Of a stretch of DNA of 64,000 nt, positions 45,711 to 61,132 are shown one piece after another. The DNA comes from Balneolaceae bacterium. GTDB taxonomy: Bacteria; Bacteroidota; Rhodothermia; Balneolales; Balneolaceae. Each line of letters starts with the position of its first letter. Positions within the stretch are counted from its first letter, which is position 1. The notes under the pieces are model-generated. The model did no database searches, was not told the origin of the DNA, and saw only the letters and a list, made by a program, of their open reading frames with translations. The position numbers and the translations under genes were made by a program. Location: the NCBI GenBank assembly GCA_017640605.1, contig JAEPQH010000014.1, forward strand, positions 1 to 64,000, written 5' to 3'.

Positions 45711-46538
45711 ATGATTAATAAACGGGTTTTAATTTGTTTACTCTTTTTCCTGCCGAGTTGCGTATCAACTTCATATACTAAACTATTAAATGATACACAT
45801 GAAGAGTATTGGACTAAAGAATCTTATTTAAAAGCTGAACAAGTTATCGAACAACTTGAACCAGATAAGTCGACGTATTCTGATTTAGCGAATGAACTTC
45901 CTATTCTTATTTCATCAATTGATAATGGTAGAGTAAGATTCTATGTGGCGAATGGTTGGTTAAAAGATTTAAACCATTTTGGCACGACTGATACAACAAG
46001 TAAATATTCGATGATTTTTGGTTACATAGACCAAGGTCAGGTTCATGTCAAATATAAGATCAAATTTAATCAGGAAGCTCCAAATCTAATTTCTGATATT
46101 CAAAAATTTACCTATGATCTTCATTCTTTGAGTAATTCAAATATTAACGCAACAAATAATGGTGAATATTTGACCAAAGAATATTATGAAATAACTAAAC
46201 ATAAGATTAACAACTTAACTGAAGGGACTGATTTTTTTGAACTTTTAAGACTTCTTGATGGCGCTATATTTCATGAAAGAATGAATCAAAATCATAATGA
46301 TTTTACAAAAGGCATTAAATCAACATTTTTAGTTGGACTTTTTGGTTACTCAAATGTGAAACAACCTATTGAATATAAACATACCTTCAACTTAGCTATT
46401 CCTGCATTAATTGAAATAATTGTGGATGAAGATGGGTTTATAAATTGGGTATTTGGATACGAAGAGGAAGATAAATTAGAGTCTAAAATCAAATTATCAA
46501 TTAACAACTGGAAACTGTACGAAATTGAATATTTATAA
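45711..46538 (+). CDS. AT-rich lipoprotein of unknown function
   Basis: A 275-residue protein with a lipobox-like LPSC after a short signal peptide. The mature part is mixed alpha/beta with no motif I know; the end (IIVDEDGFINWVFGYEEEDKLESKIKLSINNWKLYEIEYL) looks like a small beta sheet. Base use is much more AT-rich than the housekeeping genes. Its stop lies 8 bp before a large structured noncoding element, an arrangement that might reflect a gene cassette. Confidence 0.7.
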   Translation: MINKRVLICLLFFLPSCVSTSYTKLLNDTHEEYWTKESYLKAEQVIEQLEPDKSTYSDLANELPILISSIDNGRVRFYVANGWLKDLNHFGTTDTTSKYSMIFGYIDQGQVHVKYKIKFNQEAPNLISDIQKFTYDLHSLSNSNINATNNGEYLTKEYYEITKHKINNLTEGTDFFELLRLLDGAIFHERMNQNHNDFTKGIKSTFLVGLFGYSNVKQPIEYKHTFNLAIPALIEIIVDEDGFINWVFGYEEEDKLESKIKLSINNWKLYEIEYL

Positions 46539-46952: not shown

Positions 46953-47480
46953 CTAAAAACCCAAAGTCTTTATTAATGATAGTTTAGAATCAAAGAAATA
47001 AATCGTTTTCATTCCCATTCTAGGGGTTTTAACATTGTAATAAGAAATATATAGGTCATCGATTTTAAAAATCGGACCTCTTTCATAATCATCTAAATCA
47101 GTTTGTCTCTCCTCCATTACTTGATAAATCTCGCTACAAATTGATAAATCTTTGATGACAATTACCCCATTATTAATCAAATAATCTCCTACCATATCAA
47201 ATTGTTGCTCAAGATCTTTATATGAACTTATTTCAGATGATTTTAATTTTACTAAGTTTTCAAAATCAGAGTAATTGTATTTAAGGGATTTTTGACTTAG
47301 ATAATTATCAAAATCAGTTATTTTCGTTGATATTAGTACTGACTTTACTGTCATCCAATCAATTGGCTTATTCTCAGGGCATGTCACTAAATCACTCTTA
47401 GCCTGTGAGTAAACATAATCAGGATTAATGAAAACAAAGCTTATAACAATAAGTAGTATAGAAATTGAGTATTTCTTCAT
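46953..47480 (-). CDS. Small exported protein downstream of the JAMM-like lipoprotein
   Basis: A 175-residue protein from the ATG at 47480 (MKKYSISILLIVISFVFINPDYVYSQA, signal peptide); a GTG at 47492 would overlap the upstream gene. It begins 1 bp after the stop of the 448-residue lipoprotein, hence co-transcribed. Body: mixed helices (FENLVKLKSSEISSYKDLEQQFDMVGDYL) and strands ending in IYFFDSKLSLIKTLGF. No family recognised. It might be a partner or cognate inhibitor of the upstream protein; that is only context. Confidence 0.7.
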   Translation of the reverse strand: MKKYSISILLIVISFVFINPDYVYSQAKSDLVTCPENKPIDWMTVKSVLISTKITDFDNYLSQKSLKYNYSDFENLVKLKSSEISSYKDLEQQFDMVGDYLINNGVIVIKDLSICSEIYQVMEERQTDLDDYERGPIFKIDDLYISYYNVKTPRMGMKTIYFFDSKLSLIKTLGF

Positions 47481-47481
47481 C

Positions 47482-48828
47482 TTAGTACCCACATCTTTTA
47501 GTAGTTATAATATGAAGGAAGAGATTAATCGATAAGATATTATCACCATCTATTATGTAACTTTTAAGATTGAAATTGTTTGTATAATTCATTACTGCTG
47601 TCAAGAATTCAAAATCATAAAGATTTGATCCCGAACTGTAATTAGTTGGCCCACCAGAACCGCAAACAGCTGGCGATGTAGTGTCATCCCCCGAAAAGAA
47701 AGGGTGAGTATGTATTACCCCCACTATATTTTCCGGTACATCATTTAAAAAATCGTTTGGTGGGTCAATTTGACAAGCATTTCTGATCCAATCTGATGGG
47801 TAATTAATAATACTGTAATCATTCCCATCACTTACAATAAAACCTCCTTGCTCTGTTCTTTCACTAATTGGTTCATCGGGTTGACTCGATTGCCAAAGTA
47901 GGTTGAGGTTAATTTGAAACACTTCGTTATCTAATATTGGGTCTTCTGTGTCACAAGGCTCTGGAGGCTCTTCTTCTGTGCTTTCCTCTTCCGAGTCATC
48001 CTCATCGGATGCTTGTTCCGGACTACCGCAATTATATGGAGGAGGACAAGAATCATTGCCACCTTCACCTTCCCCAGTATTTGAACTCGACCCACTACTA
48101 CTCGAGCCTGTATTACCATCAGTGTTGGCACTTGGCCAGTTAAAATCAGAGCCGCCATCTGTAGGAACGCTGCCTTCAACTACAATATCGCTTTCACTAC
48201 AAGATACCGGATAACAATATAACACATCCGTTAAAGCAGTGGCCGATTTAAGTTGATCTGCACTTACCATAGTACACATATAGGTGCATTGTGGTAATAC
48301 AGACTTAGTATGAAGTAAGGAATCTAGTACTACGCTCATCGATTTGGGGTGCAACCAGGTGGTAAGTTCTTTTTTAGCCAACTCACTATCCGGAATGTAG
48401 GCAATAGCCACACGCTTTACTTCATCACTTAGCCCCAATAGATCGATAATTTCATATATGTAAGGTCGAACATTTCCATTAGCCTCCTGCACCGCTTCGG
48501 GAGAAAATCCTAACATTTGTTGATGGTAACTATAGAAGCCGTCGGCTTCTAATATTCCAAAAACAGCTACATAATTAGTTTGCAAGTTGGTTCGGGCATC
48601 ATCAATAACGGGTAAAATTACCTGCCAGTTTACGATGCCGGTAAAGCCCTGAAATCCTGATGAGTCAGATTTAAATAGATAAGCATCAGAATAATTGAGT
48701 GATCTATAATCGTTAGCCTCAATTTCGGGTAAAGGTGTTTGCCCTTTTTGATCGGTAGTTTTTTGATCAAGATTAGAAACCTCACACCCTGCTACTAAAA
48801 GTAACACCCCTAACAGTAATCGTTTCAT
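47482..48828 (-). CDS. Lipoprotein with acidic linker and JAMM/DUF4329-like C-terminal domain
   Basis: A 448-residue protein. Signal peptide and lipobox VAGC; an N-terminal domain (about residues 40-210) of unknown type; a Ser/Gly- then Glu/Asp-rich linker with Cys pairs (about 220-300); and a C-terminal domain with Glu in RTEQGGFIVSDG, then GVIHTHPFFSGDD and SNLYDFEFL. Glu...His-x-His...Asp is the JAMM-type metal signature, also found in DUF4329 domains of polymorphic toxins. So a surface metallo-isopeptidase-like or toxin-like enzyme is plausible. Function not shown. Confidence 0.72.
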   Translation of the reverse strand: MKRLLLGVLLLVAGCEVSNLDQKTTDQKGQTPLPEIEANDYRSLNYSDAYLFKSDSSGFQGFTGIVNWQVILPVIDDARTNLQTNYVAVFGILEADGFYSYHQQMLGFSPEAVQEANGNVRPYIYEIIDLLGLSDEVKRVAIAYIPDSELAKKELTTWLHPKSMSVVLDSLLHTKSVLPQCTYMCTMVSADQLKSATALTDVLYCYPVSCSESDIVVEGSVPTDGGSDFNWPSANTDGNTGSSSSGSSSNTGEGEGGNDSCPPPYNCGSPEQASDEDDSEEESTEEEPPEPCDTEDPILDNEVFQINLNLLWQSSQPDEPISERTEQGGFIVSDGNDYSIINYPSDWIRNACQIDPPNDFLNDVPENIVGVIHTHPFFSGDDTTSPAVCGSGGPTNYSSGSNLYDFEFLTAVMNYTNNFNLKSYIIDGDNILSINLFLHIITTKRCGY

Positions 48829-60356: not shown

Positions 60357-60704
60357 TTATTCTTCAATTTCGATGTTAAAGATTTCACTCACTTCTTCAT
60401 CCCAATAAAAAACCACGATGGTCCCATGTTCGTTGTTCGAAAATATCTCAGATAAAGAAATTGCTGTCAAAGCATCTGATTGAATTTTGTTTTCATCGCT
60501 TACGATGGGTGCCCAAAAAATATAAGGCAGGCTCGCTTTATCTACCGCAAAGTAATACACATCGAAGGCCTGATTATTTTTAATGATCAATTGTTCATCT
60601 TTTACGATTGCCTCCACCGCATCGCCGGATTGTTCATTATCAAAAACCGAACATCCGTTAATCAAAAATAGTGAGATCAAACATGCAGATATCTTTTTCA
60701 TCAT
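60357..60704 (-). CDS. Small lipoprotein, paralogue B
   Basis: A 115-residue lipoprotein (lipobox INGC). It shares AxxxIVKxxxLIIKNNQAFDVYYFAVD-type sequence with the neighbouring gene, and both end in a GTIVVFYW / KTAIAYFW strand. The fold is probably a small beta sandwich. The ATG overlaps the stop of the upstream paralogue (ATGA). Function unknown. Confidence 0.7.
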   Translation of the reverse strand: MMKKISACLISLFLINGCSVFDNEQSGDAVEAIVKDEQLIIKNNQAFDVYYFAVDKASLPYIFWAPIVSDENKIQSDALTAISLSEIFSNNEHGTIVVFYWDEEVSEIFNIEIEE

Positions 60705-61060
60705 AACTCCGGATGCTCATCAATAATTAGTGTGTTCCAGTACTCTCTGCCATTCCAAAAATAAGCTATGGCTGTTTTCCCTTGGGTGTAACCAACAATA
60801 ATATCGGCAGGAAATTTTCGAAAACTACCTGCTTTCACTCGGTTGGCATCGCTTTCAACAGGTATCCAATCGATTACGTACGATGTTTCCTGATCAACGG
60901 CGAAAAAGTATATATCGAACGGCAAGTTGTTTTTAATGATAAACGTATCGTTCTGTATGATGGCAGATAGAGCCTCTTCATTATTTTCGTTATTAAAAAT
61001 AGACTCACAAGCAGATGTGATACTAATTAGTAAAATGGATAAGAGTATTGAAGTGCGCAT
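60701..61060 (-). CDS. Small lipoprotein, paralogue A
   Basis: A 119-residue lipoprotein from the ATG at 61060 (TTG just before); lipobox TSAC. Shared with the next gene: NEEALSAIIQNDTFIIKNNLPFDIYFFAVDQE and WIPVESDANRVKAGS. A coupled tandem duplicate pair of unknown function. Confidence 0.7.
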   Translation of the reverse strand: MRTSILLSILLISITSACESIFNNENNEEALSAIIQNDTFIIKNNLPFDIYFFAVDQETSYVIDWIPVESDANRVKAGSFRKFPADIIVGYTQGKTAIAYFWNGREYWNTLIIDEHPEL

Positions 61061-61132
61061 CAAAGTTTAAAATTTTGCCTGTACTAAGGTATATAATTAA
61101 AACCTATCTTCATTCACATTTTGATGTGACCT

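Follow-up and report, generated by a model that had tools for sequence, protein, structure and literature searches.

Here, we describe two adjacent genes, A and B, in a 64,000-nucleotide stretch of DNA from a Balneolaceae bacterium (contig JAEPQH010000014.1; hereafter, the window). Judged by sequence comparison, they very likely encode a toxin and its immunity protein, as members of a lipoprotein-anchored polymorphic toxin system that occurs in the window's class, that of Balneolaceae, Rhodothermaceae, and their relatives. In the proposed arrangement, a lipobox and a constant head, acting as carrier ("escort"), would anchor A in the envelope; a flexible linker and then an exchangeable C-terminal domain would follow, the latter being JAMM metallopeptidase-like in the window. 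The features of the pair are as follows.

47482..48828, minus strand: gene A, a lipoprotein and putative polymorphic toxin (open reading frame and lipobox; head and JAMM profiles; structure model)
46953..47480, minus strand: gene B, a 175-amino-acid exported protein and putative immunity protein (open reading frame)
47478..47484, minus strand: stop codon of A, one base, and start codon of B, a tight coupling (sequence)
48784..48828, minus strand: lipoprotein signal peptide of A, residues 1-15, ending LVAGC (sequence)
48298..48819, minus strand: family-wide head of A (head profile match)
47959..48186, minus strand: low-complexity acidic Gly/Ser/Pro/Cys linker of A (sequence and low model confidence)
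47485..47961, minus strand: C-terminal JAMM domain of A, residues 290-448 (alignments; VIA-align against the PDB)

The original prediction had placed the pair at 46953-48828 with a 1-bp gap, and the sequence agrees; both genes are on the minus strand, with B starting 1 bp past the stop codon of A. Gene A runs from an ATG at 48828 to a TAA stop and encodes 448 amino acids; the spacer is a single G, and the ATG of B lies at 47480-47478. The predicted layout of A, a lipoprotein with a head, an acidic Cys-containing linker, and a Glu...HTHP...Asp tail, was also recovered: the lipobox LVAGC occupies residues 11-15, and the tail keeps most of the JAMM motif, namely, E326, H373-T-H375, P376, and D405. 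Of the surface location also suggested there, the lipobox is the one sign seen in the sequence. Neither A nor B had a match above cut-off in Pfam or NCBIfam.

The head of A belongs to a family of related heads. It matched the head profile at an E value of 6.6e-41 with its own row included and at 8.2e-28 in a leave-one-out search of 698 sequences. A lipobox-like motif was present in 21 of the 27 aligned heads by regular expression and in one more (L014) by eye, while the remaining five head pieces have no signal peptide within the piece of open reading frame used. A structure model of A was built from nine aligned sequences, with a mean predicted local distance difference test score (pLDDT) of 61 overall. 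In this model, the core of the head (approximately residues 68-159; block pLDDT of 57-86 for residues 71-160) has a helix at each end (68-82 and 149-159) and, in the middle, four strands interrupted by a short helix. The linker spans approximately residues 215-290, and pLDDT falls below 50 for residues 194-276. Separately, three loci (L130-L132) encode head-only proteins of approximately 184 amino acids that have no tail.

The tail of A is predicted to be a JAMM/MPN fold. Block pLDDT was 83-93 for residues 301-380 and 68-86 for residues 381-448, and the best VIA-align match in the PDB was the BRISC complex 6r8f (Z, 9.7; root mean square deviation, 3.0; 113 aligned positions; residues 295-443), followed by Rpn11, an archaeal Rpn11 homologue, AMSH, a bacterial Ubl-deubiquitinase complex, and RadC (Z, 8.2). 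From their titles, we take the 50 matches listed to be JAMM/MPN chains or complexes holding one (those of Prp8, EMC, and NPL4 included); all fall within residues 293-444 of A and none lies in the head. Foldseek alone returned nothing with an E value below 0.001 for the whole 448-residue model. At the sequence level, the window domain matched a leave-one-out JAMM profile at 9.7e-34 in the set of 698 sequences. Model and VIA-align thus agree on the JAMM fold that had been forecast for residues 300-448. The accompanying suggestion of a DUF4329-like domain stands insofar as DUF4329 (PF14220) is the nearest Pfam family, and falls on membership: just one of 20 JAMM rows (L020) reached it, scoring 22.3 bits where the cut-off demands 28.6, and window A matched no family at an E value of 10 or less. 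The domain contains Cys at positions 292, 352, 389, and 446, and JAMM tails often start, by eye, with a Cys at the linker junction.

Exchange of tails on this one head strengthens the toxin-immunity reading. Across the class, the same head is found on unrelated tails: JAMM, M23, GH19, zincins including Tox-MPTase3, DUF6973, nuclease-like domains, and unnamed ones. Twenty proteins, one of them a tail piece without a head, were scanned against Pfam. In head-bearing proteins, this identified Tox-MPTase3 (1.4e-17), DUF6973 (6.8e-25), Peptidase_M23 (best, 6.6e-17; one of the four scanned was below cut-off), and Glyco_hydro_19 (5.2e-6; a second, at 0.062, was below cut-off); one large-zincin tail had a weak SprT-like match (0.017) and another had none. 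Several tails had no Pfam match, two kinds of them appearing nuclease-like by eye; JAMM, other zincin, and nuclease-like tails were assigned by profile or by eye. The swapping appears from head identities to be recent in places. Two members of the same genus encode heads with 85% identity over 148 amino acids, one followed by a JAMM tail (in a copy broken at a contig edge) and the other by a nuclease-like tail. Two heads of a single genome, with 73% identity over 120 amino acids, precede JAMM and M23 tails, and a further genome has heads of 56-62% identity in front of JAMM, M23, and one unnamed tail. A 98% head pair was ignored, as its member L121, wrongly grouped with JAMM by the clustering, was read as a broken M23 gene without a downstream gene. 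The GC content declines from the head (39%) through the JAMM part (36%) to B (28%) in a window of 41%, which fits an exchanged tail-plus-partner cassette and proves nothing.

Each tail class further appears to have its own downstream gene, a result that depends on trimming signal peptides. We compared 57 tail/next-gene pairs after removing the first 32 residues of each partner, using chosen thresholds on which the clusters depend; 10 tails without a downstream gene in the stretch retrieved, open reading frames in which the head is followed by less than 80 residues, and a duplicate (L126) were excluded, and L121 is not among the 57. The same tail went with the same partner cluster in 292 comparisons and with a different partner in 66; different tails never shared a partner cluster (0), and both differed in 1,238. 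None of 5,000 shuffles of the pairs reached 292. Window B and a fragment at L093 fell outside the main B cluster; window B joins the B family by leave-one-out search, and the L093 fragment does so only at an E value of 0.0045. Partners of M23 tails form a family of their own (L042, L044, L045, L047, L048, L087, and L105-L107) with up to three tandem copies, and in several Balneolaceae loci they end in YFVNP or a similar sequence.

By eye, gene B itself starts with a type I-like signal peptide, and it has no lipobox. C115 is invariant and C34 is present in at least 90% of 25 aligned rows of the family. Window B is a divergent member: a leave-one-out search with default filters missed it, and with local-pair alignment and filters off, it was found at 8.1e-9 as a whole and at 3.9e-5 without its signal peptide, scoring above every sequence outside B loci. 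The neighborhood survey bore out the expectation that the A-B pair would recur in other genomes. A B gene stands directly behind 23 of 29 JAMM places, or 23 of the 25 that have sequence behind them; the six places without it comprise four contig edges (<150 bases), one 53-amino-acid remnant, and one tail cut short beside transposase-like genes. At L094 (3342-6213), a JAMM tail is cut short with transposase-like genes adjoining. B also occurs on its own, since 21 of 58 B places lie more than 6 kb from any JAMM domain or on a contig without one, and several B genes stand in a row at some loci. In a congener genome (G032) with no head or JAMM match, a lone B (L133, 7235-7774) lies between metK and a GH5 orthologue that is 87% identical to the GH5 gene of the window; it is on the 5' side of GH5 and shares its strand. 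A-B has this placement relative to GH5 in the window too, with two other genes intervening. By its position, this lone gene is a candidate orphan immunity gene at a comparable spot.

Several points weigh against reading A and B as an active toxin and its dedicated antidote. The Ser of the SxxD motif, retained by our own count in 16 of 20 aligned JAMM rows, is N402 in window A, and three of the 20 rows have HTQ instead of HTH; on both grounds, some JAMM copies may be inactive. The shuffle count is no probability, because the rows are related sequences. With signal peptides kept, the four comparison counts became 335, 23, 371, and 867, and B, M23, and one zincin partner group merged. The rule used to call signal-like segments is a crude measure of hydrophobicity passed by 276 of the 548 open reading frames in the set, so single calls are weak and it is the pattern by class that counts. 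A B-family gene is also found as the second gene behind one GH19 tail and one DUF6973 tail; stray immunity genes would account for this, and so would a general accessory role. Lastly, no transfer machinery was identified in searches for VipB and a contractile sheath; TraA/B was not searched.

As for where the pair would act, signal-like segments separate the partners by tail class. They were present in all counted partners of JAMM (23), M23 (14), GH19 (3), zincin (7), and Tox-MPTase3 (2) tails, and absent from the partners of two restriction endonuclease (REase)-like tails, an RNase-like tail, and one unnamed tail (L108). DUF6973 and three unnamed tails, each represented once, have a partner that passes the signal rule. 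At loci L084, L108, L114, and L117, the tail behind this head is nuclease-like or unnamed, and the partner lacks such a segment. Because the JAMM partners all bear signals and the REase- and RNase-like partners do not, we infer that the JAMM domain meets B in the periplasm, and the JAMM tail probably acts there. In the mechanism we envisage, A, presumed to be toxic, would be transferred to a neighboring cell, where its JAMM domain would cut a substrate in the target periplasm, most likely the peptide part of the cell wall; B would be secreted into the producer's own periplasm and block the domain there. Peptidoglycan is suggested as the substrate only by the company of M23, GH19, and zincin tails, and we give it slightly less than an even chance.

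A competing view of the site of action is that A is a polymorphic toxin of the cytoplasm, where its JAMM tail, once inside, would cut nucleic acid. Zhang et al. (2012) considered that Tox-JAB domains may be nucleases (PMC3482391), and Salmonella Rhs-DUF4329 candidates have been listed as RNases, their partners being annotated as lacking a signal peptide (PMC10469887); here and below, such statements draw on excerpts of the cited papers. RadC is among the structural matches, and nuclease-like tails occur on the same head. Yet the division of signals, 23 of 23 JAMM partners versus 0 of 3 REase- or RNase-like partners, speaks against the nuclease proposal for this JAB branch, and the conserved Cys of JAMM tails fit an oxidizing compartment. 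We therefore regard cytoplasmic nucleic acid cleavage as unlikely.

The Cys content extends to the ends of the tails. Excluding seven broken or cut tails and taking C termini from L012-L138, a Cys was found within the last eight residues in 24 of 25 JAMM, 14 of 14 M23, 3 of 3 GH19, 4 of 4 large-zincin, 2 of 2 REase-like, 1 of 1 DUF6973, and 1 of 1 unnamed (c12) tails. It was lacking in Tox-MPTase3 (0/2), RNase-like (0/2), other zincin (0/3), and further unnamed (0/3) tails. The baseline is 2 of 57 partners and 75 of 422 open reading frames of at least 150 amino acids, the tails included. A disulfide closing each cassette would explain the terminal Cys; a shared staple or a sorting signal is possible.

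The model of B was also compared with known folds. The mean pLDDT was 64, and fold matches span residues 102-175. This C-terminal part, the better modelled one, resembled cystatins (1cew, Z of 6.4; a designed cystatin fold, Z of 7.6, the best), a BLIP-like protein (Z, 6.0), and a chain of the Tae3-Tai3 complex (Z, 5.2); Foldseek alone found nothing with an E value below 0.001. With this mean pLDDT and all Z scores below 8, the label cystatin-like is a hint only, and a cleft-plugging inhibitor is a reasonable guess for B, no more. The same resemblance to cystatin and BLIP-like inhibitors would also suit a surface peptidase with a housekeeping or nutritional task, which B would serve as inhibitor, cofactor, or chaperone and not as part of a weapon, and M23, GH19, and zincin domains do serve envelope upkeep as well. 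Arguing against such a role are the exchange of tails, the partner genes that stand as orphans, the toxin domain that Pfam names on this head, and the patchy presence of the genes described next, and we consider it highly unlikely.

Among 92 genomes of the window's family, a single-sequence search with A found a match in 10 and a head profile from 8 rows found one in 12. Across 244 genomes of the class, a head profile from 27 rows matched 49, two of them marginally (G034 and G076; E, ~3e-4), while JAMM was present in 23 and B in 31. The window's genome itself contains one head, one JAMM domain, and one B by profile search, and two congeners, one of them 82% complete, had no head or JAMM match. 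Of 394 genomes sampled evenly across the phylum, nine contained JAMM, all within the class, and 30 contained the head, 28 of these within the class. The other two matched marginally (E, ~5e-4), at profile positions 1-88 only, and were taken as noise. With JAMM confined to the class and heads nearly so, the system is lineage-restricted as far as sampled. Among GTDB contigs, the metagenome-assembled genomes with members are labeled Balneolaceae, Balneolia, or Rhodothermaceae, plus one Chitinophagaceae.

Searches elsewhere were negative, and single sequences proved too weak as queries. Searching genome contigs with the single sequence of A gave no confirmed relative, plasmids gave one unconvincing Streptomyces match (E, 0.06), and none of 49 IMG/VR stretches was confirmed in a scan with JAMM. 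Sequence searches of the PDB were not significant for A (best, 0.15), heads (0.087), or B (0.53), and JAMM had no match. A clostridial match (L146; E, 2e-4) was dropped as spurious, lying at the end of an open reading frame read as a C69-type peptidase.

The route of transfer was approached through known secretion markers. VipB (PF05943), a marker of the type VI secretion system, turned up in 8 of the 49 genomes with a head. The window's order contributes 29 of the 49 and none of the eight, and VipB was also missing from the window's own genome; the control, Escherichia coli, gave a match. A contractile sheath scored above cut-off in 1 of the 49 and below cut-off in a second. From these counts, a type VI secretion system or an extracellular contractile injection system is unlikely as a general route, and both were rejected as such, though not for those few genomes. 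Whether A instead passes by cell contact, membrane exchange, or vesicles we rate as an even chance.

Lipoprotein-headed toxins have been described in other lineages. Like SitA/SitI of myxobacteria, A-B combines a lipoprotein with a constant N-terminal part, an exchangeable (in A, putative) toxin tail, and directly downstream an immunity gene (in A-B, a putative one). SitA has an escort domain of approximately 375 amino acids and nuclease tails acting in the cytoplasm (PMC5562445 and PMC8546572), whereas the A-family head has approximately 170-200 amino acids, the tails mostly look envelope-acting, and the partners are mostly exported, compared by description. Burroughs et al. (2025) described lipobox proteins in which varied tails follow a cystatin-like head and the immunity proteins are BamE-like (PMC12419801). 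These and the A-B family both have a lipobox, a small head, varied tails, and a membrane or periplasmic partner; the modelled head of A has a helix followed by four strands, and one M23 partner (L013) matches BamE weakly, its E value of 0.015 falling short of the cut-off. In the excerpts of that paper, the tails named are Min-Wnt, CapCone-1, ColM-like, START, papain-like, and VanY-like, and JAMM, M23, and GH19 are not among them. The order of strands and helices in the head would suit a cystatin-like domain, with the fold-search matches all falling in the JAMM part, and A-B may prove to be an extension of the Burroughs system with the same head domain.

JAB toxins themselves are known from Tox-JAB-1 with Imm65 and Tox-JAB-2 (DUF4329) with Imm-NTF2-2, which ride RHS or other secretion-system carriers (PMC3482391). 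The likeness lies in a JAB toxin tail with an associated immunity gene and, in Imm65, a lipoprotein that also leaves the cytoplasm. Unlike those systems, window A has no Pfam match, with no RHS or other family found at an E value of 1 or less, and B has a signal peptide without a lipobox; moreover, Ser and not Asn stands four residues before E326, in contrast to the NxxxE motif of Tox-JAB-1 as excerpted (PMC3482391). The earlier statement that no described system has this pairing needs qualifying: a JAB toxin with lipoprotein immunity and lipoprotein-headed toxins are in print. Among the papers listed by literature searches, none described lipoprotein-anchored polymorphic toxins of Balneolaceae, Rhodothermaceae, or their relatives, most subscription papers being outside the search.

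By description, lineage-restricted constant heads on polymorphic tails are also shared with MAFB-N, Microscilla-N, and APD1/APD2 (PMC3482391). The APD proteins of Amoebophilus, with a lipobox, a constant head, and varied tails, have the same layout as A and differ from it in being predicted to target a eukaryotic host, which raises the question of whether A, too, could be an effector against eukaryotes such as grazers. Against this, toxins directed at other organisms usually have no immunity gene (PMC12419801). In the loci analyzed here, B follows 23 of the 25 JAMM places with sequence behind, and the M23 and GH19 tails point to the bacterial wall. Some JAMM domains cut ubiquitin chains, which would fit a eukaryotic target; we nevertheless find such a target extremely improbable.

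The toxin-immunity reading extends lipoprotein-anchored polymorphic toxins to the class of Balneolaceae, Rhodothermaceae, and their relatives. It ties one branch of JAMM toxins to exported partners, so that the question of the toxin JAMM substrate becomes testable, and it offers natural head/tail combinations for finding how lipoprotein toxins enter neighbors without a type VI secretion system. More tentatively, and with rather less than even confidence, we propose an undescribed weapon system of one class, in which a small escort head would deliver rotating, mostly wall-cutting enzymes without a type VI secretion system, most tail types would be Cys-closed at the extreme C terminus, and the JAMM tail would be the first periplasmic wall-acting JAMM toxin, checked by an exported cystatin-like inhibitor.

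Some loci share insertion spots and some neighbors of A-B may be of interest. Recurrent spots include one next to genes that we take to be ileS/dksA/lspA-like (L013, L015, L042, and L045), one at a presumed gcvT with a comB-like neighbor (L043, L047, and L048), and one at a presumed metK (L085 and L133). In the window, a tandem pair of similar-looking small lipoproteins of 115 and 120 amino acids lies at 60357-61063. A 275-amino-acid lipoprotein gene at 45711-46538, on the opposite strand, adjoins A-B; it is AT-rich (29% GC), matched no Pfam or NCBIfam family above cut-off, and is perhaps part of the same island.
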